The notes under the pieces are model-generated. The model saw nothing but the letters and a program-made list of their open reading frames with translations, had not been told where the DNA came from and did not search any database. DNA of 38,760 nt. Source: Terriglobia bacterium. GTDB lineage: Bacteria; Acidobacteriota; Terriglobia; Bryobacterales; Bryobacteraceae. This document shows positions 1,967 to 26,536 of this stretch, piece by piece (the stretch's first letter is position 1; each line of letters opens with the position of its first letter). The stretch lies in contig JAIQFJ010000007.1 of NCBI GenBank assembly GCA_020073325.1, forward strand, positions 1 to 38,760. Direction: 5' to 3'. Made by a program: the position numbers and the translations under genes.

Positions 1967-3892
1967 TCACTCCGGAGGGAATTGCCAGGAAGTACTTTCT
2001 CCGGATTGCACCAACGTAAAGCCGAGAGCGGTGGCATTCGGAGGAAGATCGTCCGGCAGCAATGCATTGACCTGATACAAACCGATGCAGCCTGGAACGA
2101 GTCCCGAAAACGCGACGGCGGCCGGAAAGTTTCCGATCGAAACCTGTGGCGCCGCCGATGTGAGCGCGAGTGGATCCACGGGAGCCGGCGCGTCGATCGG
2201 CACGTTCGCATCCGGCGCGCCGAGACCCACGGCGTAGATCACCAGCGTCTCCGCGGGTTTCGGCGGGTTGGCGGCCGAAACATTCGTGCCGTCGACGTGG
2301 ACGACGGCCGCAATCGCCGGGGTCGCGTGGCGGACCGGCACGATTGCTGGCACAGTCAGGGCGCCGTCGTTGCAAATCACCACGCTGGCGTTGCCGACGG
2401 CAAGATCGTTTGGAACCAGGATCTGAGCCGACTCCGGAGAAACTCCGCACAGCGGTACGCGGACGCCGTCAACAGCGGCGAATGTGCTGCCGAGAATGCG
2501 CGGTAGCGGCAGCGCGGTGGCCGTTGCCTCCTGGCCGAACCCACTTCCGGAGATGACTGCGACCGCGCCGGGCGAAAGCGCCCGCATGCCGCCCCACACC
2601 ATCACGCCGCCCTCAGAAATCACGGGGCCGGTGGATGGCGCGAGGTATCCGTACGCGGCGAGTTGAGACAGCACGCTTGCGTATCTCATCGAAAGAAACG
2701 AGTGCAGCCAGCTCGCATTCGCTTCGAACTCCGCGGCTCCGCACGGAATCAGGCTGCTATCGGGACTCTCGCACTGTTTATTCGGATCGTTCAGCGCGGC
2801 ATCGTGAATCAATGCGTATTGGCGGTTCAGTTCGTTATCCGCCCAGCCGCCCGCGCCGCCAAGAACACTCATCGCGCGCGCGACGTCGTCGAAATAGATG
2901 TTTCTGTATTCGGGGATGCCCGCCAGACGCTGGGCGAGCAGGTTGATGTGCGTCCCGTTCGTGATCCCAAACAGGATATCGGTGTTCGGGTCGCTGAACG
3001 CAAGATCCTTATCCCAGGGAATGAGCTGATACAGCGTCTGGTTCTGGAATTGATAGAGATCGAAATTATTCATTCCCACGACGCCGCCGCAGATCCCGTC
3101 TGCTTCATGCAAGGCCGCCTCGATGGCGATGTGCATCAGGAAAAGGCCCGGGTTCAGATACCCTGACAGCGCTTTGATGAACTGCTGATCCGTGAAGCCT
3201 GTAGTGGGAGGACGATTGATGACCTGAACCAGATTCATGAAATTCTGCGGATTGCCCGAGCTCTGGTGCGTCTCCAGATTTAACAAGGGAAGATAGGCCG
3301 ACGGGTCGGTGCCGAGATCTTCGAATTCATAGGAGCCATTGTTTTTGAACTCGTACAGGTAGCCGCCGTTCTCGCCGAAGTTCCGCTGGAGAAACGTTTC
3401 ATCCAGATGCTCGACAATGGTGTAATAGCCCAGCAGTTCGCTGTTCAGATAAATCTGCGCGGGTGCTTCACGTGGAGCGGGCAGGCCCATTCTCCGGAAA
3501 AGCTTCATGGCCATCCATTCGCGCAGATTGGAGGCGTCCTCGTTATTCGCTTTAATCAGCACCCACGGCAATCCCAAAAAAGTTTGCGACCGATTGTATC
3601 TGCCGAAATCGAGGTCCAGGTTCGGCTTCAGCGGGCTCCGGCTTCCGCTGCCGTGCGAACGGATTCCGATATTGTCGACCGTGAGGCCGTTCCACGTAAA
3701 CACGGCCGGATAATACGTGTTCTCGAGATAGTGCTGCTGGAGGGTCGCCCAATCCACGGGATCCATCGTGAGTTGGATCACTTGCACCTTCGAATCGTCG
3801 AGGAAGTTGTTGGCCAGTGTTTGGGACCAGGAAGGCGTTGCAGCGGCGAGCAACACCGTGAAGACAACAGCGTCAGGACGTAGCATGGCCAC
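1967..3892 (-). CDS. Secreted CotH-kinase-family protein with TIGR03437-like C-terminal domain
   Basis: 641 aa; SHGSGSRSPLKPNLDLDF...WVLIKANNEDASNLREWMAMKLFRRMG, GYYTIVEHLDETFLQRNFG, LIPWDKDLAF typical of CotH; tail VIYAVGLGAPD...YQVNALLPDDLP. Confidence 0.85.
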   Translation of the reverse strand: MAMLRPDAVVFTVLLAAATPSWSQTLANNFLDDSKVQVIQLTMDPVDWATLQQHYLENTYYPAVFTWNGLTVDNIGIRSHGSGSRSPLKPNLDLDFGRYNRSQTFLGLPWVLIKANNEDASNLREWMAMKLFRRMGLPAPREAPAQIYLNSELLGYYTIVEHLDETFLQRNFGENGGYLYEFKNNGSYEFEDLGTDPSAYLPLLNLETHQSSGNPQNFMNLVQVINRPPTTGFTDQQFIKALSGYLNPGLFLMHIAIEAALHEADGICGGVVGMNNFDLYQFQNQTLYQLIPWDKDLAFSDPNTDILFGITNGTHINLLAQRLAGIPEYRNIYFDDVARAMSVLGGAGGWADNELNRQYALIHDAALNDPNKQCESPDSSLIPCGAAEFEANASWLHSFLSMRYASVLSQLAAYGYLAPSTGPVISEGGVMVWGGMRALSPGAVAVISGSGFGQEATATALPLPRILGSTFAAVDGVRVPLCGVSPESAQILVPNDLAVGNASVVICNDGALTVPAIVPVRHATPAIAAVVHVDGTNVSAANPPKPAETLVIYAVGLGAPDANVPIDAPAPVDPLALTSAAPQVSIGNFPAAVAFSGLVPGCIGLYQVNALLPDDLPPNATALGFTLVQSGESTSWQFPPE

Positions 3893-4076
3893 GGCGCTAC
3901 TCCTTTCCTGATTGGTAGCGCACGCTTCGGACCAAATTCATCGTGCGCGAAGCAAACCTGTCTTCGCGTGAACCTGAGCATCTTCACGCAAGAATTGCGC
4001 GGGATACCGCAAAATAGCACTCCGGGAAGGGAAGGTTAGTTGCAGCAATCATCCCGGCCGATCAGAAGGATCTCTT

Positions 4077-6272
4077 ATGCGAACGGTCTTCCAGTTCAGT
4101 ACGATGCTTTGCACCATTTCATGCGCCTTAGTCGCGCAGTCCAATTCCCCAGTATTCACGCCCGGCAATCTCGTCGTGACACGCAGCGTCTACACAGGCG
4201 ACGCGACCACTGTCAGTGCCGGCCAGTATCTGCCGCCGGTTTGTCCCGCGACCGCTGCCTGCGGGCCCATCAAAGCTTCGGATAACGGAGCGTATCCGGT
4301 TCCGGGCACTGCCAACAATGTTTGGAACAACACCAAGGCAGATGGCAGTTTCAGCGTCACCACACCGATTTTTTTGGATCAGATGACTCCGGCGGGCGCG
4401 CTCGTCAACACGCTGGCCGTTCCGCCGAACCTTTTGATCACCAGCTTCGCTTCCAAGTCCGAGCTCGCCGTCAACTTGTCCGACGACGGAACGGCGCTCA
4501 CGCTGGTGGGATACGTCGCGCCCCTGAACAGCCTGGATGTTTCGAACTCGAACACGCCCGGCATTTACGATCCGACGAATCCCGCGGGCGGCAGTTACTA
4601 TCGAGCGGTTGCGCAGATTGGCGCAAATGGCGCGATCCAGGTGACGCGAATCAGCGCATATAGCGGCAACCAGGGCCGCGCCGCGATTCTCGCCGGTGGC
4701 GCCTATTATATGGCGGGCAATTCGAACAACGGCACGGGCACGCCCGCGAATCTGGTCGCTGCGACAGGCATTCAGGCGGCTGTTCCGGGACAACTCGCCG
4801 CGACGGCTCCGGTGGAAGTCGGCAATTTTTCGATCGAGCAGGCGACGAATCCCGATACCGGCAAACCCTATCCGCCGGATAAACCAGGCAAGGATAACAA
4901 TTACCGGGGCCTGACCCTCTTCAATAACACGCTGTATGCGACGAAGGGCAGCGGGAGCAATGGGGTGAACACGGTCTATCAAGTCGGCACTGCGGGAACG
5001 CTCCCGGCGCTCGCCACCGCGGCGAACACGCCGATCACGATCCTTCCCGGATTTCCCACGACGCTCGCGAAAGCGGCGGGCGCGCTGAATCCTTTCGGGG
5101 TCTGGTTCGCCGACGCGAAGACGCTCTATGTCGCCGACGAGGGCGACGGCACCGCGGCCAACGCTGCCATCAGCCAAGCCGCGGGGCTGCAGAAATGGAG
5201 CCTGGTGAACGGCGTCTGGCAGTTCGATTACGTTTTGCAGAATGGATTGAATCTCGGCCAGCCGTACAGCGTGGCGAATTATCCCGCGGCGCTGAATCCA
5301 TCCACGGATGGACTGCGCAACATCACCGGTCGCGTCAATACCGACGGCACGGTTAGCATTTGGGCGATCACATCCACGATCAGCGCGAATGGCGACCAGG
5401 GGGCGGATCCGAACAAGCTGGTGATGATCACGGACGTGCCCGTGAATATGAGCGCAACCGCGGCGGCGAATGAGCAATTCGTCGTCGTGAGATCCGCCAA
5501 CGCGGGCGAGGTTCTCCGCGGCGTGTCGTTCGCCCCGAAGAGCGGCGCCGCACCGATGTCGAATGTGCCGCTTGTCATTTCAGCCGCGAATCCCGGAGCA
5601 TCGGCCATCGCGCCCGGATCGCTGACGTTCGCCTTCGGACAGGATCTGGCTACGGGAACACCGGGGGAGATTCTGGGGATTCTCCCGACGAAGTTCGCCG
5701 GTACTTCGGTGACGGTGGTAGACTCTGCCGGCGTCGCGACGCTCGCGCCGCTTCTGTTCGTCTCTTCAGCGCAGGTCACGTTCCTGGTGCCTTCGACGGC
5801 CGCAACCGGGCCTGCACAAGTCGTCGTGACCACTGGCTTCGGCAGCCAAACGGCTTCAAACATCCAGATCGCTTCCCTGGCCCCGGCATTATTCACGATC
5901 AATAACGCGGGTGTGCCCGCGGGATATGTGATCCGCGTCGCCGCCGACGGAACGCAAACGTATCAGCAGATCTATGCGATCGACAGTGCCGGCTCAATTG
6001 TCGCGAGTCCCATCGACATGGGATCGGCCACGGACAAAAACTACCTTGTGCTGTTCGGGACGGGCCTGCAATCCGCCTCCGCCGCGACCGCCCAAGCGAG
6101 CGTTGCGGGAATCCAGGCTCAGGTTCTCTATGCCGGTCCTCAACGAAGCTATCCGGGGTTGGATCAGGTCAACCTTACGCTACCGCAGTCGATCGCTGGG
6201 AAAGGAAACATCAACGTCCAACTCTCGGCGGCGGGGATCGTTTCGAATCCGGTGCAGATCGTCGTTCATTAG
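4077..6272 (+). CDS. Large secreted protein, beta-propeller-like N-terminal region plus TIGR03437-like C-terminal domain
   Basis: 731 aa; signal-like N-terminus; ...NPFGVWFADAKTLYVADEGDG...; tail VLFGTGLQSAS...YPGLDQVNLTLPQSIAGKG. Confidence 0.7.
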   Translation: MRTVFQFSTMLCTISCALVAQSNSPVFTPGNLVVTRSVYTGDATTVSAGQYLPPVCPATAACGPIKASDNGAYPVPGTANNVWNNTKADGSFSVTTPIFLDQMTPAGALVNTLAVPPNLLITSFASKSELAVNLSDDGTALTLVGYVAPLNSLDVSNSNTPGIYDPTNPAGGSYYRAVAQIGANGAIQVTRISAYSGNQGRAAILAGGAYYMAGNSNNGTGTPANLVAATGIQAAVPGQLAATAPVEVGNFSIEQATNPDTGKPYPPDKPGKDNNYRGLTLFNNTLYATKGSGSNGVNTVYQVGTAGTLPALATAANTPITILPGFPTTLAKAAGALNPFGVWFADAKTLYVADEGDGTAANAAISQAAGLQKWSLVNGVWQFDYVLQNGLNLGQPYSVANYPAALNPSTDGLRNITGRVNTDGTVSIWAITSTISANGDQGADPNKLVMITDVPVNMSATAAANEQFVVVRSANAGEVLRGVSFAPKSGAAPMSNVPLVISAANPGASAIAPGSLTFAFGQDLATGTPGEILGILPTKFAGTSVTVVDSAGVATLAPLLFVSSAQVTFLVPSTAATGPAQVVVTTGFGSQTASNIQIASLAPALFTINNAGVPAGYVIRVAADGTQTYQQIYAIDSAGSIVASPIDMGSATDKNYLVLFGTGLQSASAATAQASVAGIQAQVLYAGPQRSYPGLDQVNLTLPQSIAGKGNINVQLSAAGIVSNPVQIVVH

Positions 6273-7412: not shown

Positions 7413-7513
7413 TGTCAGCGCCGGTGTAAAAATCCCCATATAGCCGTTTGAAAATTCCCCACCCTCGGACGAGGGTATGAAGCCGGCCGATCCTCGGTGG
7501 AGGAGGGCCGCCA

Positions 7514-8764
7514 TTGCTAAGGGGATCAGACGTGCAACAGCTTATGGAGATGAAGCGAGAGGGCCTCAGCACCCAGGCCATCAGCAAGCTGACGGGTTAC
7601 GACAGAAAGACGGTGCGGAAGTATCTGCTGAAGCCGGAGACGGTTCCGCGCTATGGGCCGCGCATGGCGCGGCCGAGCAAGCTGGACGCGCACAAGCCGT
7701 ACTTGCAAGATCGGATGAAAGCCGGCGTGTGGAACGCCCAGGTGTTGTTGCGGGAGCTTCGGAAGCTCGGCTACCAGGGCGGCTACACGATTTTAAAAGA
7801 CTGGCTGCAGCCGCAGCGAGCCGCCGGGATGGCGACCGCCGTTCGCCGGTTCGAAACGCCGCCCGGCAAACAGGCACAGGTGGACTGGGGACATCTGGGC
7901 TACCTGGAAACCGGCGGCGAGCAGTGCCGGGTGTGGGGCTTCACGATCACGCTGGGCTACAGCCGGCGGATTTGGGCGCAAGCGGCGCTGGATCAGAAAC
8001 TGGGAACGCTGCTGCGGATGCACGAGGCCGCCTTCCGGGAGTGGGGTTCGGTTCCCGAAGAGATTCTGTACGACCGCATGAAAACCGTGTGGCTGGGCAG
8101 CGACGAACGTGGCGAGATCGTCTGGCACCCTGTGTTTCTGGACTTCGCGCGGTACTGGGGTTTCCGGCCGCGGCTGTGCCGGCCGTACCGGGCGCAGACC
8201 AAAGGCAAGATCGAGTCGGGCGTGAAGTACGTGCGGCGCAACTTCGTGTGCGGGCTGCTGGGCCGCGAGCCATCCTGCCTGATGGATTTCAATACCGAGC
8301 TGCGCCAATGGGTGGACGGCGTCGCCAACCAGCGGGTGCACGGGACCACGCGCGAACTGGTGCTGGCGCGATGGGACATGGATCAGTTCAGTATGCCGTT
8401 GCTGAATGGCCGGTCGCCCTATCCCTACTCGGACGACGAACTGCGCAAGGTGGCGCGGGATGCCTATGTGAGCTGGCAAGCCAGCCGCTATTCGGTGCCG
8501 TGGCAGTACGTGGGCAAGGAAGTTTGGGTACGCGAGCGGGGAGTCGATGTGGAAGTGCATTACGGCGGACAGCGCATCGCGGTGCATGCCCGCGCCGAGC
8601 GCCGCCACCAGATCATCACCCATCGTCCGCATCACCAGGGCATTCCGCTCGGGGGCGAAAAAGGCGGCGGCAAGATTCTGATCCAGATGCGGGAGACCGC
8701 GCCGTCGGTGGAAGTGCGACCACTGGCCGCCTACGAGAGCGTGGCGATGGGAGGTGTCCGATGA
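7514..8764 (+). CDS. istA: IS21-family transposase IstA
   Basis: 416 aa; MKREGLSTQAISKLTGYDRKTVRKYL HTH; QAQVDWGHLGYLE, YRAQTKGKIESGVKYVRRNFV DDE-type core. Confidence 0.95.
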   Translation: MLRGSDVQQLMEMKREGLSTQAISKLTGYDRKTVRKYLLKPETVPRYGPRMARPSKLDAHKPYLQDRMKAGVWNAQVLLRELRKLGYQGGYTILKDWLQPQRAAGMATAVRRFETPPGKQAQVDWGHLGYLETGGEQCRVWGFTITLGYSRRIWAQAALDQKLGTLLRMHEAAFREWGSVPEEILYDRMKTVWLGSDERGEIVWHPVFLDFARYWGFRPRLCRPYRAQTKGKIESGVKYVRRNFVCGLLGREPSCLMDFNTELRQWVDGVANQRVHGTTRELVLARWDMDQFSMPLLNGRSPYPYSDDELRKVARDAYVSWQASRYSVPWQYVGKEVWVRERGVDVEVHYGGQRIAVHARAERRHQIITHRPHHQGIPLGGEKGGGKILIQMRETAPSVEVRPLAAYESVAMGGVR

Positions 8765-9651
8765 CTCCCATCGAACGGCTGCAAACTTCGCTCACCAGCC
8801 TGGGGCTGAAAGCAGTCGAGGCTCGCCTGGAGAACCTGTTGGAACAGGCCGCCAAGAAGGCTCCCGGCTATGCCGAGTTCTTGGATCAGCTGCTGGGCTG
8901 CGAAGTGGATGCGCGCCGCACGCGCTACTTGCGGGCGCGATTGCAACTGGCGCATCTGCCCTTCGTGAAAACCTTCGACCAGTTCGACTTCGGCTTTCAA
9001 CCCTCGATCGACGAGAAGCAGATCCGCGAGTTGCGGAGCCTGCGCTTCCTGCACGAAGCCAGCAACGTGATTCTGCTGGGACCGCCCGGCGTGGGCAAAA
9101 CGCACTTGAGCGTGGCCTTGGCCGAAGCCACCATCCAGTCTGGATTCGGAGCGTACTTCATCACCGCGCACGATCTGGTGGCCGACCTCGGCCGAGCTTA
9201 TCGAGAAGGACGACTGGACCGGCGCATGCGAGTCTACCTGGCGCCGAAAGTTCTGATCATCGATGAAATGGGTTACCTGCCTTTGGACGAGCTGGGCGCA
9301 ACGATCTTTTTCCAGCTGGTCAGCGCGCGCTACGAACGTGGCAGCATCATTCTGACTTCCAACAAGAGTTACGGCGACTGGGGCTCGATCTTCGGAGATC
9401 CGATCATCGCCACGGCGATCCTCGACCGCCTGCTGCACCATTCGACGACCATCAACATCCGCGGCGAAAGTTATCGCTTGAAGGACCGGCGGAAGGCCGG
9501 TCTGTTCCCGCGATCCGAGGAGGAAACCAGGCCAGCCCCCTTTCCCTCCTCAGAGATGTCGCAGAACGGTCCTCGCCGTCAAGGGTCCGCGGCGCCGCGC
9601 AAAACCAGCGCGCCCTTGACCGCTCCGGGCCGTTCTGACGGCACTTCCTAA
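8761..9651 (+). CDS. istB: IS21-family helper ATPase IstB
   Basis: ATGA overlap with istA; VILLGPPGVGKTHLSVALAEA Walker A, VLIIDEMGYLP Walker B, IILTSNKSYGDWGSIFGD; part of ORF 7477..9651. Confidence 0.95.
   Translation: MTPIERLQTSLTSLGLKAVEARLENLLEQAAKKAPGYAEFLDQLLGCEVDARRTRYLRARLQLAHLPFVKTFDQFDFGFQPSIDEKQIRELRSLRFLHEASNVILLGPPGVGKTHLSVALAEATIQSGFGAYFITAHDLVADLGRAYREGRLDRRMRVYLAPKVLIIDEMGYLPLDELGATIFFQLVSARYERGSIILTSNKSYGDWGSIFGDPIIATAILDRLLHHSTTINIRGESYRLKDRRKAGLFPRSEEETRPAPFPSSEMSQNGPRRQGSAAPRKTSAPLTAPGRSDGTS
9562..9637. repeat. Nested inverted repeat near the 3' end of istB
   Basis: CAGAACGG(9562-9569)/CCGTTCTG(9630-9637), GTCAAGGG(9578-9585)/CCCTTGAC(9613-9620), GCGC(9597-9600)/GCGC(9608-9611). 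Confidence 0.85.
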
Positions 9652-9761: not shown

Positions 9762-10803
9762 GAACTCATCACGTCGGCTTTTAATGTCGAAATGGTTATA
9801 GAAATGCACAATGCGGATGCATTTCATAATGAGGTGGACGCGTATCCAGCGATCACCATAATTCGCCGCCAAGTGCAAGGGTCAGCTATAGTCGCCAGTG
9901 CTGCACCGGAGGCCGGGAACGTCGGATCGCGGCAACTTCGAGAGGCGCTACTGGCATGCGCACGAAACACCACGCGGGAGTTAGTGACGGGAATACGAAC
10001 TGCAGTTGTTAAGAGCTGGTTTAAAGGTGCAGACCCTTGGCCGTGCCATTCCCCCGACCAACTTGCGCTCTTACGGAGACTGGAGGACCAATTTCCGACT
10101 CTCGAATCGAACGCTAGAGTGGGCATCGGCGTCGCGACAGGGAACGATCAGGTTTTCATTACGAAGGACGCGCGATTAGTCGAGCCCTCCCGACTGCTAA
10201 AACTAGCACTGGTGAAAGACTTATGCCAAGGTGCTTTGAACTGGTCCGGGCATTATCTTGTTGACCCATGGGACACCGACGGGCTCGTCGATCTCAACCA
10301 ATTCCCAAAACTTCGCGGGTATTTCGAGAAACACTCGGTCGCCCTGAAGAAGCGCCATACCGCCACGAAGAATGCGCACGGGTGGTTTAGAACGATCGAT
10401 CGTGTCACACACTCGCTTATACGACGCCCCAAGCTCTACATCGCGGATATCAAGAATGTACTCGATCCTGTTCTCGACGCGGGCGAGACATATCCGCACC
10501 ACAATCTTTATTACGTTCAATCGGATGACTGGGACCTCGAAGTCCTGGGCGGGCTGCTTATGTCGGCTGTTGGGCAGTTTTTTGTTGAATCCTACGGTGT
10601 CCGAATGCGGGGTGGCTACCTCCGATTTCAGGCCCAATACTTACGTCGGATTCGGGTCCCCGACCCAAAGACGATTACGCGAGCTCAGTCCGATGCTCTG
10701 AGAGACGCCTTTCGCAAGCGGGACCGACAGCGAGTTGACGCGGATTGCGCTGAAAATCTACAAGGTTGCGCAACAGGAGATGGAGACTGCCCTTGGACAT
10801 TGA
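9762..10803 (+). pseudogene. C-terminal remnant of a PaeR7I/XhoI-type N6-adenine DNA methyltransferase, truncated at the IS21 boundary and frameshifted
   Basis: Open frame begins at the IS edge: ELITSAFNVEMVIEMHNADAFHNEVDAYPAITIIRR...; VGIGVATGNDQVFI, LSVDPWDT-like region; catalytic N-terminus (NPPY domain) absent; tail resumes in another frame as RDDSELTRIALKIYKVAQQEMETALGH* if the extra C near 10724-10725 is removed. Confidence 0.8.
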
Positions 10804-11511
10804 AAAGCGCCTGCGAGACGCCGTTCAGAAGTACTGGAACGCACGAGCGAAAAACAAGGAAAAGCAGATCGAAGGTGGCAAAATCGACGCCGGCACGCGC
10901 GGCGAAGTCACCGGTGGCGCGCAGATGGGTGCTATGGAGATCCTCGTCGCGGACATTCTCTGCGATGCTGGCCTGGACAAGCCAGACGTGCGGACCCGCA
11001 CCGCGCTCGAGCTACCGGGATACTATCGCGCTGAAAAGAAGCGGGACCTTATCGTTGTGTCCGACGGCCAGCTTGTGACGGCAACGGAATTCAAATCGCA
11101 GGTTGGCCCCTCGTTCGGCGACAATTTCAACAATCGATCCGAGGAGGCGATCGCAGCGCAACGGACATCTGGATCGCGTACCGCGAAGGCCGCTTTGGCA
11201 AGGCCCCAGTCCCATTCTTAGGTTACTTTTTTCTACTCGAAGATCGCGATCGCGTGCGGACGCCCGTTCGGAACAAGAAACCGTATTTTCACGTCGATCC
11301 CGCTTTCAATAAAGCCTCTTACAGCAAACGCTACGAACTCCTCTGCCGACGCCTTGTGCTTGAGCGTGTCTACTCCTCCGCGTGCTTGGTGATGGCGACC
11401 AATTCACCGAGAACACATCTCACACAACCCGCAAAGGATTTGAGCTTCGCCCGTTTCGTTGCGGCACTGCGAGGCCATGTAGTGACCTTCTTGGAAAGTA
11501 GGGGGAGATAA
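10793..11511 (+). pseudogene. PaeR7I/XhoI-type type II restriction endonuclease, one-base frameshift near 11154
   Basis: LDIEKRLRDAVQKYWNARAKNKEKQIEGGKIDAGTRGEVTGGAQMG...GYYRAEKKRDLIVVSDGQLVTATEFKSQVGPSFGDNFNNRSEEAI, then in the next frame SATDIWIAYREGRFGKAPVPFLGYFFLLED...ASYSKRYELLCRRLVLERVYSSACLVMA. Confidence 0.85.
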
Positions 11512-11664: not shown

Positions 11665-12582
11665 TCAACTTGCGACTCTCAACCGGATCGCGTCATTCGG
11701 CGCGTGAAGAAGATCTTGCTTCGTCCCGAGGTATCGCTCCGTCGTCTGAACTGATGCGTGGCCGAGGAGCAGTTGAATCTGCTCCAACTCGCCGCCGGCG
11801 GCTCGACACAGCTTCGCACACGTGCGGCGCAGATCGTGAGGTGCGAGGCCGGGGATGCCAATTCCGGCGGCGTACTCCCGGAGCATCTGCCACACGACCT
11901 TCTCGCCCAGTCGGTCGCCAGAAACTCGCTCCCGGATAACGGGGCGGAAAACGTGCCCCGCGTCAACACCCGACGCGGTCCACGCGTCGATCGCGACCTT
12001 CACCCAATTCGGCATTGGTGTCGTCCGAACACGACCGTGCTTGCCGACGAGATCCACGATGCACCACCGGCCATCACGTTGCTGGATGTGCGCGAACGTG
12101 AGCGCGGCGACTTCGGATCGCCGTAATCCACACCCTAGAAGGACCGCGAGAATCGCGCGATCGCGCAAGCCACGAATCGTGGTCACGTCTGGCGCGTTGA
12201 GCAGCGCTTGGGCCTGCCGCGCCGAAAGCCAATTACCGGTGCGGACGCCGACACATTTCGTGCTCTTCACGCGGGCGATACCGGCGGCTAACTCCGGTGC
12301 GAGCATCCCGTTGTCGGCAGCCTCTGCCGCAAGTTTGCGGATCGCAGACATTCTAATAATGATGGACGACGAGCCCAGCCTGCGCTCCTCCAGCGATACC
12401 CGCCACGCGCTCACGGTGGCTTTGGTGAAACCCGGCTGCGGCGCCTGCCGGAACCAAGCCAAGAACTCTTCCAGCGCCATGTTGTACACGCGCTTCGTAA
12501 TCGGCGACGACACGGAATCGAGCACCATCGCCTTCAATCTGTCCCAGTTTGCGGGCGTTTCCGCCACGGTCAAATCGTTCAT
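11665..12582 (-). CDS. Tyrosine recombinase/integrase (XerC/D-like)
   Basis: 305 aa; GCGLRRSEVAALT, HDLRRTCAKLCR, LLGHASVQTTERYLG catalytic motifs (R...HxxR...H...Y). Confidence 0.93.
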   Translation of the reverse strand: MNDLTVAETPANWDRLKAMVLDSVSSPITKRVYNMALEEFLAWFRQAPQPGFTKATVSAWRVSLEERRLGSSSIIIRMSAIRKLAAEAADNGMLAPELAAGIARVKSTKCVGVRTGNWLSARQAQALLNAPDVTTIRGLRDRAILAVLLGCGLRRSEVAALTFAHIQQRDGRWCIVDLVGKHGRVRTTPMPNWVKVAIDAWTASGVDAGHVFRPVIRERVSGDRLGEKVVWQMLREYAAGIGIPGLAPHDLRRTCAKLCRAAGGELEQIQLLLGHASVQTTERYLGTKQDLLHAPNDAIRLRVAS

Positions 12583-12827: not shown

Positions 12828-13571
12828 CTACTTCCTCGTAAGCACGTCCGCCAGAAACCGGAGTTCGGACTCCACTTGGGCGGGATCGGCCACGGTATCC
12901 GCAATTTCCTGGCGAAAGAGGTCGCGATAGCGCTTGCGTAGCCGGTGAATGGCAACTTTGAGCGCTCCCTCTGAGGTTTTCATTTCGCGAGCCAGCGCCG
13001 CATACGGTGCATCGGACTTCCCGAGAAGAAACACCTTCAACCGTTCAAAATGCTCCGGGCGACCGTGCTGCACGAACTCGTCGCGTAATTTCTCCACGAC
13101 TCGATCGAGCACCGAAAGGGCCCAGCGTCGTTCGAAAATCCGCTCGGGAGTCTCATCGTGCACGGGCTCTCGCCGGTAGCGGTCCTCGCCCGATGAGAAT
13201 TCAAGTGGCAGAAGCGCCCCACCGCCGCGTTTGTGCGCGCGCTGGCGGTCTTCTTCATCGGCAACAAAAAATTTCAAGGAGGTCAACAGAAAGGATCGGA
13301 ACCTGCCCTTTTCCGGGGCGGCGCGATCGAGGTATCGCCCTTCCAGCACGCGGATGAAGAACTCCTGAGTCAGATCCTGCGCCTGATCCACGGGATAGCC
13401 GCGCCGGCGCAGATAGGCGTACAGCGGATACCAGTAGTTTTCGCACAGAGAAATCAGAGCTGCCCGAGCCTCTTTCCGTTGGGGATCCGCTGCGGCGATT
13501 ACCAGCGTCCAACGTGTGGTCGGAAACTGGGACGGTCCCGTAAGCGTGTGCATGGTCTGGCCGTTCGTCAT
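12828..13571 (-). CDS. ECF-like sigma-70 family RNA polymerase sigma factor
   Basis: FPTTRWTLVIAA...DQAQDLTQEFFIRVLEGRYLDRAAPEKGRFRSFLLTSLKFFVADE (sigma2) and YAALAREMKTSEGALKVAIHRLRKRYRDLFRQEIA (sigma4); start placed at MTNGQTMHTL because the longer ORF would include the promoter-like element. Confidence 0.85.
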   Translation of the reverse strand: MTNGQTMHTLTGPSQFPTTRWTLVIAAADPQRKEARAALISLCENYWYPLYAYLRRRGYPVDQAQDLTQEFFIRVLEGRYLDRAAPEKGRFRSFLLTSLKFFVADEEDRQRAHKRGGGALLPLEFSSGEDRYRREPVHDETPERIFERRWALSVLDRVVEKLRDEFVQHGRPEHFERLKVFLLGKSDAPYAALAREMKTSEGALKVAIHRLRKRYRDLFRQEIADTVADPAQVESELRFLADVLTRK

Positions 13572-13602: not shown

Positions 13603-13631
13603 GAATAAGGAATCCGCCGAGAAAAGTTACA
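13603..13631 (-). promoter_or_regulatory. Promoter-like element copy D: TGTAAC-N11-GATTCCTTATTC
   Basis: Reverse complement reads TGTAACTTTTCTCGGCGGATTCCTTATTC between the kinase stop and the sigma start, followed by GCGG-GATG-CCGC. Confidence 0.6.
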
Positions 13632-13640
13632 GCGCAATCA

Positions 13641-16600
13641 CTACAGCCTGCCGTACTCTGCTTTGGCGGTCCTGAGGATCTGGACGTCGGGATCTGCGTC
13701 TTTCCAGAGTGCGAGAAAAGCCTCGTACGCAGCTTTCGCCTTGGCCTTCTCTCCCAACAGAGCGAACACTCTACCAAGTTGCAAGTGGGCGAGCGCGCCG
13801 ATTGGGTCCGCGCCTACGATACCGCGATGATCGAGAATCTTCTGAAACTCAGCCGCGGCTTCCGCATTGTGGTGCTCAGCCACCAAAGCTTCGCCGCGCA
13901 CATAGGCCGAGTGCAAACCGCCAAGATAAAAGTGGTCGTGGTCGAGGCCATTCGCCGCCAGCTCATATTGCTTAGCGCTTTCCAGCCGCTCCACGCTTTC
14001 TGCCGGCTTGCCCCGTGCCAGCGCGGCTATCGCGCGAAGAACCGGCGCGTAAGTAAATCTCACAAAGGTATCTTCCGGGAAGCGCTTCTCTAAATCGCCG
14101 GCGAGTTCCTCTGATCGAGATGTGTCGCCCGAAAAAGCCAGGGCAAGGCCGATGGCGTATTGGACGTCCCGGCCCCTGGAAAGCTCGAGCGCCGCCGTGG
14201 CGCTCCTTTTTCCCTCGGTGCCATTCCCGTAAACGGCTTCCCACACTGCTCGGGCGGCCCGGTAACTCGCTGCCTCCTCGCGTCCCCCCTCTTGCAGGGC
14301 TAGATCCACCGCTCGGTTCGATAACCGCTCGGCGACCTGTAAGCGGCCGGAACGAGCCAGGGCAAGAGCATTTGCGTGAGCCAACCGGTGTTCTGCTCCC
14401 TGCTTGTCCTTGGCTAGAGCCATTACCCGATCCATCTCGTCCTTGTCCCCCTTGATCACCGCGATATTGTATCGGAGCACCAGATGATTAGCGTTCCCAA
14501 CCTTGTGTTCGGAAGCTCGCTGAAGAATCGTCTCGGCTTCGGGGAAGCGGTCCAGGAAGAGATAGTCGAACGCAAGACCGCCATAGGCGAAGGAAATGTC
14601 GGGATGGACCGCGATCTCTTTTTGCGCCATCTCGATCGCTCTTTCAAACCGGCCTGTCCCCTGTGTGGAAATGCCTCCTAAAAAACCTTGGGCAGTGGGC
14701 AGGTCCCCGCCGCGAGGATAGGTCTGATACCACGATTCGAGGGTTTGGTACGCCTTTTCCAGGTTTCCCGTCACATTCCGATCATAGAGGAAGTCGATTG
14801 AATACTTCTCGCGATCGCTGACTCGATCTCGCAGTTGCCAGGCTTTTGTCGTGCTCTCGGCTGACAAAAGGGACTCTCCAATAGCGCTATACTGCTGCCC
14901 CAACATGGCGTACGCCATCGCGAATTTGGGGTCGATTTCGACGGCTCGGCGGAAAAAGGGTATGCCCGCCTGTTGCCCGCCAGAGTAGTGCACTTTCATG
15001 CCGGTGCCGTAAGCCTTGAGCGCGTCCAGTGACGCCGTCGTAGCGTCGGCGAGCGGTGTCGAATGCCTCTCCACTTGAACGAACGATTCGCCAACCCGGG
15101 TACGGAATTTGCGGGCGATCTGGCTGAGAGAGTTCAAGACTTCTTCTCGCCTGGCCGCCTGAATCTGCTCTTGATCCAAAACAGTGCCGGTATTACAGTT
15201 CTTTGCGCGCAGGCCCAGCACATATTGGCTGCCAAGGCCTGTGATGGAGCCTTCCAGAATCGCGGCGCTGCCCGTTCGCTCGCAGACTTGCTGCGCGATT
15301 TCAGGAGTCAGCCGTGCATCTTTCGGCTGTCCCATGAGACCTAGCGTCTGCTGGAGTTGCTGGTCCGAAATAATTTCAAGGAACGGCGATTGTTGAAGCT
15401 CCACGGATAACCCCTGGCGTAGCGTGTCGTCGAACACCGGATCGCCGGTCTTGTTATCGAAATCGGCAAGGACAATCGTATCCTTGTCGGTCAATTTGGG
15501 TCGCGGCGCGAAATCGCGATGTGAAAGCGACCAGGCCGTTACCCCGATCAACACGAGGACTACGGCTCCCGCGACTGTCGCGAGGGCGGCCAGCCTGTGC
15601 CTGCGCAGAAACTTGCGCACTCGATATAGCCGGCCCGGAGGCGAGGCCAGCACCGGCCGGTTTTCCATGTGCCTTTGGATATCACCCGCCAACTCAGCCA
15701 CCGAAGCATAGCGCCGCTCGCGCGTCTTCTCCAGTGCCTTCATGGCAATCGAGTTCAGGTCGCCGTCGACGAGGCGGCGCAGGGACGCCGGATCGGTTTG
15801 GCGGCGCGCGGCGATATCGCTCGCTACCGCGCCCATTGAGGTCAGCTTTCGCGGTAGCGACGGCGCTTCGTCTTCGCGGATCATTCGCAGCATTTCCGCT
15901 AGACCGGCGTTGCGCAGGGTGGCGGTGTCGAACGGCACAGCTCCGATCAGCAACTCGTACAAAAGCACACCGAGCGAATAGACATCCGAGGCCTGATCGA
16001 TATCTCCCGTCATCGTGTCGGCCTGCTCAGGGCTGGCGTACTCCGGTGTCCCGACGATCTGCCCGAACTGCGTCAGCAGCGTGTTCTCTACGGCCCACTT
16101 GTCGGTGGCCTTCGCGATGCCGAAATCGATCACCTTGGGAACCGGAGCGCCGTCCTGCTCGGTCACAAGCACATTCGACGGCTTTAGATCGCGGTGGATC
16201 ACGCCCTTCTGGTGCGCATGTTGGACCGCGCGGCAGACTGCGAGGAATAACGCGAGCCGCTCCCTGGTAGTCATCCGCTTGGTATCGCAGTACTGCGTGA
16301 TGGGCGCGCCCTCGATGTACTCCATGACGAAGTACGGCCGCCCCTTCGTAGTCGCACCGGCGTCGAAGATTTGGGCGATGTTCGGGTGGTCCATCATCGC
16401 CAGCGCCTGGCGCTCGTTGTTGAAGCGGGCCAGCACCTGGGCAGTATCCATGCCGAGCTTCACAACTTTAAGAGCCACGCGTCTGCGAAGGGGCTCAATC
16501 TGTTCGGCTAGATAAACAGTGCCCATACCGCCTTCGCCTAGAGGTCGAAGGACGCGGTATCGGCCGAAATCCTCATCACCGTCCAGCGCTGTCGCTGCAT

Positions 16601-16772
16601 CGAGGGTATGTGTTTCGAATTCGTCCGCGCCGACGGAACTCTCGAAAGCGGCAGCGATCAGACACTTCGGGCACAACCCGGCGGGATCACCGGAACCCAA
16701 TTGTTCTCCGCACTCAGGGCAGTTGGGCATTTTGATCGAATTCGCCGTGCCCATTGTAGTCTCTTTGGTCAA
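13641..16772 (-). CDS. Ser/Thr protein kinase (zinc-ribbon N-terminus, Pkn2-like kinase domain, TM, extracytoplasmic TPR-like region)
   Basis: MPNCPECGEQLGSGDPAGLCPKC; GRYRVLRPLGEGGMGTVYLAEQ, VIHRDLKPSNVLV, DFGIA, GTPEYASPEQ; LAALATVAGAVVLVLIGVTAW TM; TPR-like repeats. Start may be as late as 16730. Confidence 0.93.
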   Translation of the reverse strand: MTKETTMGTANSIKMPNCPECGEQLGSGDPAGLCPKCLIAAAFESSVGADEFETHTLDAATALDGDEDFGRYRVLRPLGEGGMGTVYLAEQIEPLRRRVALKVVKLGMDTAQVLARFNNERQALAMMDHPNIAQIFDAGATTKGRPYFVMEYIEGAPITQYCDTKRMTTRERLALFLAVCRAVQHAHQKGVIHRDLKPSNVLVTEQDGAPVPKVIDFGIAKATDKWAVENTLLTQFGQIVGTPEYASPEQADTMTGDIDQASDVYSLGVLLYELLIGAVPFDTATLRNAGLAEMLRMIREDEAPSLPRKLTSMGAVASDIAARRQTDPASLRRLVDGDLNSIAMKALEKTRERRYASVAELAGDIQRHMENRPVLASPPGRLYRVRKFLRRHRLAALATVAGAVVLVLIGVTAWSLSHRDFAPRPKLTDKDTIVLADFDNKTGDPVFDDTLRQGLSVELQQSPFLEIISDQQLQQTLGLMGQPKDARLTPEIAQQVCERTGSAAILEGSITGLGSQYVLGLRAKNCNTGTVLDQEQIQAARREEVLNSLSQIARKFRTRVGESFVQVERHSTPLADATTASLDALKAYGTGMKVHYSGGQQAGIPFFRRAVEIDPKFAMAYAMLGQQYSAIGESLLSAESTTKAWQLRDRVSDREKYSIDFLYDRNVTGNLEKAYQTLESWYQTYPRGGDLPTAQGFLGGISTQGTGRFERAIEMAQKEIAVHPDISFAYGGLAFDYLFLDRFPEAETILQRASEHKVGNANHLVLRYNIAVIKGDKDEMDRVMALAKDKQGAEHRLAHANALALARSGRLQVAERLSNRAVDLALQEGGREEAASYRAARAVWEAVYGNGTEGKRSATAALELSRGRDVQYAIGLALAFSGDTSRSEELAGDLEKRFPEDTFVRFTYAPVLRAIAALARGKPAESVERLESAKQYELAANGLDHDHFYLGGLHSAYVRGEALVAEHHNAEAAAEFQKILDHRGIVGADPIGALAHLQLGRVFALLGEKAKAKAAYEAFLALWKDADPDVQILRTAKAEYGRL

Positions 16773-16777
16773 GCTCC

Positions 16778-16807
16778 TGTAACTTTTCGTCCCGCGATTC
16801 CTTATTC
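16778..16807 (+). promoter_or_regulatory. Promoter-like element copy A: TGTAAC-N12-GATTCCTTATTC
   Basis: TGTAACTTTTCGTCCCGCGATTCCTTATTC between the divergent kinase and the 16882 gene; hairpin CAGGTGAGCCGG/CCGGTCGCCTG at 16812-16841. Confidence 0.65.
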
Positions 16808-16881
16808 GGGACAGGTGAGCCGGATTCGGACCGGTCGCCTGATCGCAGACCCCGAAAGGAAATTCACTTCAAGGAGCGCAT

Positions 16882-17952
16882 ATGAAAAACACAACGAGAC
16901 CTAACACCCTGCCAAGAGCGCGGAACATGCTACGGCGGCATTGGAAAACAGCGCTTGCGACGGCTCTCTACGCCGCCGCGTGCTGTCAACTGGGCCTGGC
17001 GCAAGTCGCGCCGCCTTCGATTCTGCAGATCGACGTCGCAAACAATGTTCTGTATGATGAAGACGCCTCCGACGTTTCCAAGTTTGCGACTGCTCCCAAT
17101 GCTATCCCCGATTCCCACGCTGGGAAAAACTTCAACCGGGCGGTGGGCGTCGCCGACATTGTGGCCGTCGATGGCCAGCCCGTGACGGGGACTCATATGC
17201 GCTCCGCGGTGAACGTTGGTCTCAGGACGGCCCCCGTCCCCGGCCAGGCCATCGCTGACACTGTGCGGGTTGGTCTGGCCATATTCACGTTCGAAATCTT
17301 GAAAAGTGACGGTACGCCGATCGGGACCATCATGACGGAAGGATTCGCTGGTGGCACTGCGCCACCCGGGGCTCCCTTGACTGCGACGGCAGGAGGTAAC
17401 TTCGTGATTACAGGTGGCACGGGAGCATTTCTCGGCGCTCGCGGGCAAATGGAGATGGTGGCAAATCCGCCAGGAGTGGCTTCTCAACGGGGAGCCTCCA
17501 TAACAGAGGACCCCGCGAACCGCCGCCTTAATGGAGGCGGGACACAACGGTATGTAGTCCATTTAATCCCGATGTCCGCCCCGCAAGTTGTGATCACTGC
17601 CGGCGGCCCGGCCGTCACCCATTCCAGCGACTTCTCTCTGGTTACTGCGTCTAAGCCGGCCGCGCCGGGCGAGGTCTTGTCTCTGTTTGCTACAGGGCTT
17701 GGTCCGACGGTGCCCGCAGTCGATCCAGGGCAGTCCTTTCCGTCCAGTCCTTTGGCCACCGTCAATTCGCCCATCGAGGTGAAGGTGAATGGGAATTCCG
17801 CCGAGGTGCTCGGAGCAGCCGGCTTGCCCGGTTCGCTAGGAGGTTACCAGGTGAACTTTCGGATGCCTTCGGATGCGGCAAGAGGAGTGGCCACCATTCA
17901 GGTGAGCGCAGCCTGGATCACCGGCGCGCCTGTCAGCATCACGGTGCAGTGA
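16882..17952 (+). CDS. Secreted protein, allene-oxide-cyclase/dirigent-barrel-like N-terminal domain plus TIGR03437-like C-terminal domain
   Basis: Signal-like N-terminus; GNFVITGGTGAFLGARGQMEMV; tail VLSLFATGLGPTVPAVDPG...GGYQVNFRMPSD. Confidence 0.75.
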   Translation: MKNTTRPNTLPRARNMLRRHWKTALATALYAAACCQLGLAQVAPPSILQIDVANNVLYDEDASDVSKFATAPNAIPDSHAGKNFNRAVGVADIVAVDGQPVTGTHMRSAVNVGLRTAPVPGQAIADTVRVGLAIFTFEILKSDGTPIGTIMTEGFAGGTAPPGAPLTATAGGNFVITGGTGAFLGARGQMEMVANPPGVASQRGASITEDPANRRLNGGGTQRYVVHLIPMSAPQVVITAGGPAVTHSSDFSLVTASKPAAPGEVLSLFATGLGPTVPAVDPGQSFPSSPLATVNSPIEVKVNGNSAEVLGAAGLPGSLGGYQVNFRMPSDAARGVATIQVSAAWITGAPVSITVQ

Positions 17953-25280: not shown

Positions 25281-25412
25281 GAACCACGCCAGGAATTCTT
25301 CAAGAGCCATGTTGTACACGCGTTTCGTAATCGGAGACGACACCCTGTCGAGGACCATCTGCTTGAATCTGTCCCACTCCGCGGGCTTTTCCAGCACGGT
25401 CAAATCGTTCAT
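25281..25412 (-). pseudogene. Truncated second copy of the tyrosine recombinase (N-terminal about 44 aa)
   Basis: MNDLTVLEKPAEWDRFKQMVLDRVSSPITKRVYNMALEEFLAWF vs MNDLTVAETPANWDRLKAMVLDSVSSPITKRVYNMALEEFLAWF (38/44 identical); similarity then stops abruptly. Confidence 0.9.
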
Positions 25413-25431
25413 TGTGGGTCCTTTTAATAAC

Positions 25432-25622: not shown

Positions 25623-25652
25623 GAATAAGGAATCGTGGGGTGGAAGGTTATA
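25623..25652 (-). promoter_or_regulatory. Promoter-like element copy C: TATAAC-N12-GATTCCTTATTC (orphan)
   Basis: Reverse complement TATAACCTTCCACCCCACGATTCCTTATTCG; leader hairpin AGGCGG/CCGCCT at 25590-25612; strongly similar to copy A through CGCCTGATCG. Confidence 0.55.
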
Positions 25653-25795: not shown

Positions 25796-26269
25796 CTATT
25801 GCCTCCAGTCGCCCACCGGAAACTGCCTCCGCGCCTCGCCGGTGTAGACAATCGCAACGGCGCCCGAGTCGGTGCAAATGTACTTAAATCCGTTCCCGCC
25901 ATCGTCGATTACGAAGGAGTAGTGAGACGAGCGGCCGCTGGAACCCAGGACCGTGATCGTGCCGGTGCAATCAGGATTCACCGTATAGGTGCCCGCTTGG
26001 GTCCCCTGGCCTATGTTGCCGTTTTGGCTGGAGGTGGAAGCGCCTGTAATAGCGCCATTTCCGTCGAAGGTGAACGTGCCGACAACGGCAATCGGGCCGG
26101 CTGCCATGGCGGGCGCGAGAACGGTTCCGGTATCTCTGCGAGAGAAGGTGCCCATCAGGCTGACGTTAGAGCATCCTTTTTCGGCGGCCTTCGCTGCGGG
26201 CGCAATGCCCAGAGCGAGTATGGCGACTGAGGCGATGGCGAAAGCTTTGGCGATGGTGCTGTGTTTCAT
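25796..26269 (-). CDS. Small secreted protein of unknown function
   Basis: 157 aa; clear signal peptide MKHSTIAKAFAIASVAILALGIAPAAKAAE; GTFTFDGNGAITG...GTYTVNPDCTGTITV; AAAGGAG upstream. Confidence 0.8.
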   Translation of the reverse strand: MKHSTIAKAFAIASVAILALGIAPAAKAAEKGCSNVSLMGTFSRRDTGTVLAPAMAAGPIAVVGTFTFDGNGAITGASTSSQNGNIGQGTQAGTYTVNPDCTGTITVLGSSGRSSHYSFVIDDGGNGFKYICTDSGAVAIVYTGEARRQFPVGDWRQ

Positions 26270-26325
26270 GACGAATCTCCTTTAGTTTGGGTCGATCAAG
26301 GTGGCCAATCAGGCTCACCTGCCAC

Positions 26326-26355
26326 GAATAAGGAATCGCGGTGCCGGAGGTTACA
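26326..26355 (-). promoter_or_regulatory. Promoter-like element copy B: TGTAAC-N12-GATTCCTTATTC
   Basis: Reverse complement TGTAACCTCCGGCACCGCGATTCCTTATTCG upstream of the 25796..26269 gene; leader hairpin at 26297-26321. Confidence 0.65.
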
Positions 26356-26401
26356 GCCTCTGGGACGAAAAGGTGTAGACTAGCTGTGCAATCCGGCCGA
26401 A

Positions 26402-26536
26402 ATGCCACAGTGCCCTCAGTGCGAAGCCCAATTGGGTTCGAGTGATCCCGCGGGGCTGTGCCCGAAGTGCCTGATCCTGGGCGCATTCGACAGCTCGGTT
26501 GGCACCGCCGAGTCCGAGACTAGGTTCTACGCGTGA
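26402..26536 (+). pseudogene. Truncated Ser/Thr-kinase-associated zinc-ribbon N-terminus (44 aa)
   Basis: MPQCPQCEAQLGSSDPAGLCPKCLILGAFDSSVGTAESETRFYA*; 27/37 identical to the zinc-ribbon start of the 13641..16772 kinase. Below the ORF-track length cutoff. Confidence 0.8.

Follow-up and report, generated by a model that had tools for sequence, protein, structure and literature searches.

A putative self-contained kinase-ECF sigma factor circuit with promoter-like elements before the sigma gene and a secreted-protein gene in Bryobacterales

In the canonical ECF/anti-sigma circuits of RpoE and SigW, a promoter with an AAC -35 lies before the sigma gene and the sigma factor has a defined regulon. 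Soil and aquatic phyla contain many kinase-linked ECF sigma factors. Group ECF43 comprises EcfP/PknT of Vibrio parahaemolyticus and EcfK/PknS of Xanthomonas citri, in which the kinase is believed to relay an envelope or external signal to the sigma factor (PMC8999054, PMC13147305). Phosphorylation presumably controls those STPK-linked ECF groups that have an acidic motif, and the planctomycetal STPK-linked groups are ECF59, ECF61, ECF62, and ECF217 (review PMC8999054). We found no promoter or target for a kinase-linked ECF sigma factor outside ECF43 in the literature searched, which left out the ECF group classification and promoter predictions.

We analyzed a 38,760-nucleotide stretch of a Terriglobia bacterium genome (contig JAIQFJ010000007.1, assembly GCA_020073325.1; hereafter, the window), for which an earlier note had proposed an autoregulated ECF sigma/kinase regulon defined by a repeated bipartite element. 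The features are summarized in Table 1. We consider it highly probable that the locus is a self-contained kinase-sigma circuit for envelope signaling, with promoters before the sigma gene and before a secreted output.

Table 1. Positions of the features in the window, and loci carrying each output family and sensor type.
Feature	Position or loci	Strand	Evidence or remarks
IstB/IS21 helper protein	7477-9651	plus	
Protein with weak TaqI-like C-terminal domain	9792-11078	plus	
Tyrosine recombinase adjoining the cassette	11665..12582	minus	Pfam Phage_integrase 1.3e-22
ECF-type sigma factor gene, 247 aa	12828..13571 (ATG at 13571)	minus	TIGR02937, Pfam Sigma70_r2, orthologues
Putative promoter copy D, TGTAAC-N11-GATTCCTTATTC	13603-13631	minus	Exact pattern match; faces the sigma gene
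Transmembrane Ser/Thr kinase	13641..16754	minus	Pfam Pkinase 3.2e-43, TPR families, hydropathy
Putative promoter copy A	16778-16807	plus	Exact pattern match; divergent from the kinase, faces the secreted-protein gene
Output leader GGTGAGCCGGATT...CCGGC	16809..16844	plus	Conserved in an alignment of 16 leaders; predicted short hairpin
Output 1, secreted protein, ITGGTGxFxGARG segment and Solibacter C-terminal domain	16882..17952	plus	TIGR03437 6.7e-21
Recombinase 5'-end remnant beside copy C	25281-25428	minus	84% over 148 bp
Putative promoter copy C, TATAAC variant	25623-25652	minus	Orphan that retains promoter and leader but has lost its output gene
Output 2, small secreted protein, predicted 8-stranded beta-barrel	25796..26269	minus	AlphaFold2
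Putative promoter copy B	26326-26355	minus	Exact pattern match; precedes output 2
Second kinase gene remnant, N-terminal 46 residues	26402..26539	plus	65% identical, one TGA; divergent from copy B
Output family: GGTG-barrel proteins with or without Solibacter C-terminal domain	window A, L038, L039, L041, L080		
Output family: small beta-barrels	window B, L040, L061, L075, L082, L085, L087		
Output family: HAF-like/DUF3466-like repeats	L037, L043, L086		HAF is our own reading of the repeats; Pfam shows only weak DUF3466 matches
Output family: DUF4394 proteins with PEP-CTERM-like tail	L042, L079		
Sensor type 1	window, L038, L041, L080, L082, L085, L087		
Sensor type 2	L037, L039, L040, L042, L075		
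Sensor type 3	L079 alone		

Kinase, sigma factor, and element copies in the window

The kinase consists of an N-terminal CPxC zinc-ribbon-like motif, a Hanks kinase domain, a TM segment at about residues 388-406, with hydropathy peaking at residue 388, and an extracytoplasmic TPR sensor half. It carries the Hanks motifs HRDLKPSN and DFG and reads as intact. A query of the whole source genome with the kinase domain gave 48 matches, the nearest of which shared no more than about 46-49% identity with the cassette kinase, indicating that dozens of Ser/Thr kinases are encoded in this genome.

The sigma factor matched TIGR02937 over residues 60-237 (1.3e-8, score below the family cut-off) and Pfam Sigma70_r2 just short of the cut-off (3.9e-5), and its orthologues in other genera were 78-87% identical along the entire protein. 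On these matches it is assigned, as a divergent member, to the ECF (group 4) factors, which have regions 2 and 4 only. We place its start codon at the ATG, which aligns with the orthologue starts, rather than at the upstream TTG at 13637. As that note had remarked, no anti-sigma gene is visible beside the sigma gene, whose neighbors in the window are the kinase and recombinase genes.

The pattern TGTAAC-N11/12-GATTCCTTATTC had three exact matches in the window (copies D, A, and B) and was matched in none of 100 dinucleotide shuffles. Copy C, previously counted as a fourth instance of the same element, has the full GATTCCTTATTC half and one mismatch, TATAAC replacing TGTAAC. Otherwise the analysis reproduced the earlier description, including the coordinates of all four copies, the spacers (N11 in copy D; N12 in copies A, B, and C), and the orphan state of copy C, downstream of which no homologous ORF was found. 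Copy D lies 31 bp ahead of the sigma ATG. A search of all 600 contigs of the genome (6.54 Mb) found no element beyond these four copies; a single extra match with three mismatches does not exceed chance, and nothing was found with the reversed control. Random scatter without enrichment at genes had been named in advance as evidence against a regulon, and the scan found the element confined to the locus.

Copies A and B matched at 73% over 216 bp, a stretch that takes in the 5' end of the kinase gene (26307-26520 against 16612-16826), and copies A and C at 80% over 66 bp including the copy A leader. Copies A, B, and C stem in part from a single duplicated piece and are not independent of each other, so the window alone offers two independent instances of the element, copy D and the A family. 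Copies D and A have only the two motif halves in common. Copies B and C, output 2, the kinase stub, and the recombinase remnant look like a decayed second cassette that kept one promoter-output pair; this second unit and the orphan copy C lie 9-13 kb from the main locus.

The IstB/IS21 helper and the TaqI-like protein upstream indicate that the cassette sits among mobile-element genes. A recombinase 3'-end remnant was also observed beside the cassette in another genus (L041, 14514-14651). The recombinase beside the cassette and its remnants at copy C and in L041 suggest that the circuit may have moved with the recombinase. It was nevertheless rejected as an invariant component of the cassette, being seen only in the window and as the L041 remnant.

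The element in related genomes

We searched 151 related genomes for the sigma gene, with at least 67% identity defining a close orthologue, and independently for the element, using the pattern TGTAACN{12,15}TTCCTTAT. Each of the nine genomes carrying a close sigma orthologue contained the element, as did 3 of the 142 others (Fisher P = 2.5e-12). The three exceptions (G083, G010, and G013) read as fragments or remnants of the same locus. A sigma fragment adjoins the element in G083. The G013 copy consists of a kinase 5' stub, the element, and an output 2 homologue at a contig edge, and the G010 element occupies the same position close to a contig edge; of this pair, only the G013 copy was read. 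The two elements (L061, G013:C47; L062, G010:C75) have an identical offset of 266 from the contig edge, and the G013 contig ends within the kinase gene. A close sigma was found in neither genome, which may reflect an assembly break in a repeat or a real loss of the sigma gene.

Further loci were taken from named records of Bryobacterales and other Acidobacteriota, including isolate KBS 96. Among 19 sigma-proximal and 18 output-proximal copies read from the orthologue group, AAC and CTTA were invariant with a spacer of 16 or 17 between them, and TGTAAC was changed only to TATAAC, in two copies. The position of copy D was kept in 19 loci, in which TGTAAC and CTTA were invariant, and the upstream flanks of the sigma-proximal set carried mostly 0.2-0.6 bit. 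Since AAC and CTTA are fixed, TGTAAC is nearly so, and the spacer is 16 or 17, the element has the pattern of a -35/-10 promoter. All complete loci of the group share the order kinase, element, sigma. In each of them a second element lies ahead of the kinase on the opposite strand and points toward a divergent gene for a secreted protein.

The retention of copies D and A in all complete loci, although they are alike only in the motif halves and most of the sequence around the motif copies is far less conserved, appears largely to refute the view that the repeats are mere debris of local duplication with no common regulatory role. That view draws on the common origin of copies A, B, and C, on the absence of a gene at copy C, and on the kinase stub and recombinase remnant beside the second unit; we leave it a very slight chance overall, and it still holds for copy C.

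With a looser pattern (up to two mismatches) applied to nine genomes, extra matches outside the locus were no commoner than with the reversed control, which indicates that each circuit has a private regulon. An orphan regulon with many scattered targets was rejected on the same comparison. Because the element is confined to the locus, is practically limited to genomes that have the sigma gene, and occupies the same two positions, autoregulation with a divergent secreted output is the best reading; at the sequence level, the sigma gene has its own element before it, as do its putative targets. The earlier proposal of an autoregulated regulon is therefore supported in a narrower form: the element tracks the sigma gene at two fixed positions, and the outputs number one or two, not many. 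Its assignment of the element as a promoter of the neighboring sigma factor is well supported by the genome comparison.

The element could instead be a binding site or operator of another regulator, since the downstream leader GGTGAGCC is conserved too and the link between sigma factor and element is drawn solely from sequence comparison. We regard this as improbable in view of the -35/-10 geometry with an ECF-like AAC, the location 25-80 bp ahead of start codons, and the tracking of the window sigma's orthologues over 151 genomes; moreover, the loci contain no other recurring regulatory gene, and the same -35 half precedes the kinase of the same sigma family in other phyla.

In regard to this wider family, 67 more distant sigma homologues were found in Acidobacteriota, Planctomycetota, and Verrucomicrobiota, with the gene order usually sigma then kinase. 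Of 48 sigma-to-kinase gaps, 26 had TGTAAC no more than 150 nt ahead of the kinase start (mostly at 35-77 nt), against 8 of 170 control ORFs (P = 3e-22), the kinase starts being refined and the control starts unrefined; about half of the wider-family loci are without TGTAAC before the kinase. The motif density around the wider-family sigma gene was 0.75 per kb against 0.098 per kb overall. The consensus is TGTAACCTT, a spacer, and then roughly TTTnCTTAGTAA, and TGTAACCTT is kept ahead of the kinase in the distant homologues from Planctomycetota and Verrucomicrobiota. Extra copies in two distant loci (L117 6502 and L051 8122) precede secreted beta-rich proteins, which suggests that secreted outputs may be general in the family. 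The L117 protein is secreted and has GTVFKxxxDGTGYTVLKSF repeats, and the L051 protein is likewise secreted and beta-rich. The occurrence of the element before the kinase and secreted genes in distant loci indicates that the promoter code belongs to the sigma family. By gene order, the gene that would be fed back is the second of the pair, namely the kinase in the wider family and the sigma gene in the window's group.

Sensors, outputs, and the proposed circuit

The divergent outputs of the orthologue group comprise four unrelated secreted families. Output 1 has orthologues in L041 and L080, and weak AOC_like/Dirigent matches in L039 and L041 give it, through these relatives, a weak resemblance to allene-oxide-cyclase/dirigent barrels; its structure model was too poor to use (pLDDT 35). 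The homologues of output 2 are the other small beta-barrels in Table 1. Its AlphaFold2 model, built with seven homologues, had a mean pLDDT of 78 and 85-95 in most of the core, and its best PDB matches were designed barrels and nitrobindin (E about 1e-4, TM 0.4-0.5). The model supports a calycin-like barrel with no specific ligand indicated.

Within the group, sigma factors were 78-88% and kinase domains mostly 73-88% conserved, and the sensor halves fell into types that were 35-50% identical to each other. The comparison shows sensor and output being exchanged around a constant sigma factor and kinase domain, and the output families do not track the sensor types. In the L082 kinase (2626-5916), the kinase domain is nearer the second sensor set and the sensor half belongs to the first, an indication of recombination (domain exchange). 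The sigma tree (247 aa) was star-like with one well-supported fork and is too shallow for the output and sensor exchanges to be counted. The leader hairpin gave a mean folding z of about -2.0 against mononucleotide shuffles only, on an uncertain alignment, and the claim of a functional RNA was dropped for these reasons. The hairpin would lie near the predicted transcript 5' end and could stabilize the mRNA.

In the circuit that we propose, the membrane Ser/Thr kinase would sense an extracytoplasmic signal through its variable TPR-rich domain and activate the neighboring ECF sigma factor, most likely by phosphorylation. The sigma-RNA polymerase would then initiate at TGTAAC-N16/17-CTTAT promoters, of which the one before the sigma gene would provide positive feedback and the one divergent from the kinase would drive the secreted output. 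The output part would have been duplicated in the source genome, giving the partly decayed second unit with copy B and the orphan copy C. We infer that the sigma factor reads the element and that control runs from the kinase to the sigma factor.

The region 2.2 motif is QAQD in the window sigma and most close orthologues, and DAQD or DAED in the wider family; QAQD keeps one acidic residue of DAED. A phosphosite of the EcfP type was rejected for the window sigma, which has QAQD instead of QTTA and is without the phospho-threonine, so phosphorylation may act elsewhere or via another protein. Candidate conserved phosphosites in the sigma factor are the Thr of DLTQ (63/70), T19, and T141. No third recurring gene besides sigma, kinase, and output was found in the 19 loci of the orthologue group, which indicates that there is no conserved anti-sigma gene.

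The kinase gene adjoins the sigma gene in the window and lies within 1 kb of it in 69 of 80 homologous loci from three phyla, and this adjacency, the intact kinase, and the precedent of EcfP/PknT and EcfK/PknS make phosphorylation of the sigma factor by the kinase likely. The promoter assignment could be right and the kinase nevertheless not phosphorylate the sigma factor, whose own transcription would dominate, or the kinase could target an unlinked anti-sigma factor. Strong autoregulation is evident, and the acidic residue kept in QAQD, like DAED or DAQD in many wider-family members, accords with such a scheme; it has to be set against the same adjacency, the failure to find a conserved anti-sigma gene, and the phosphorylation control presumed for acidic-motif groups (PMC8999054). 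We judge it unlikely, with a minor share of probability, and retain phosphorylation by the kinase as the preferred reading.

We also incline, with some reserve, to a broader reading of the locus as a portable cassette. Its kinase domain, sigma factor, and two promoters would be constant, the sensor (three types) and output (four families) would be exchanged by recombination, and TGTAACCTT plus a CTTA-like -10 would be used across Acidobacteriota, Planctomycetota, and Verrucomicrobiota. A constant core with an exchangeable sensor and output would represent a natural case of modular signaling. A promoter code valid across many genomes would permit direct target assignment, the circuit could be tested in a heterologous host, and many secreted proteins without an assigned function would be tied to one kind of signal path.

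Comparison with known systems

Kinase-linked ECF groups are already known, and the novelty of the circuit is limited accordingly. The window circuit resembles ECF43 in that its ECF sigma gene adjoins the gene for a transmembrane Hanks kinase and has no anti-sigma gene next to it. In ECF43, however, the acidic motif is lost and replaced by STTA/QTTA, which contains the phosphorylatable Thr, whereas the window sigma has QAQD, with Gln at the equivalent position, and falls outside ECF43 by this motif. The ECF43 mechanism therefore does not transfer directly. The regulons also differ: polymyxin resistance or T6SS in ECF43, and one secreted output per locus with putative autoregulation via copy D in the window circuit.

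The window circuit shares with RpoE and SigW the AAC -35 promoter pattern ahead of the sigma gene. It differs from them in having no anti-sigma and a putative regulon of one or two genes adjoining the circuit, and its predicted -10 half, CTTAT, differs from the classical ECF -10.

The planctomycetal groups ECF59, ECF61, ECF62, and ECF217 resemble the window sigma and its relatives in kinase adjacency, in an acidic or near-acidic region 2.2, and in the presence of Planctomycetota in the wider family. The Bryobacterales orthologue group differs from them in its inverted order (kinase, promoter, sigma) and its divergent output gene. For these four groups, the literature searched gave no promoter, target, or function. 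Judged by kinase adjacency, region 2.2, and phyla, the window sigma probably falls within one of them or close to one.
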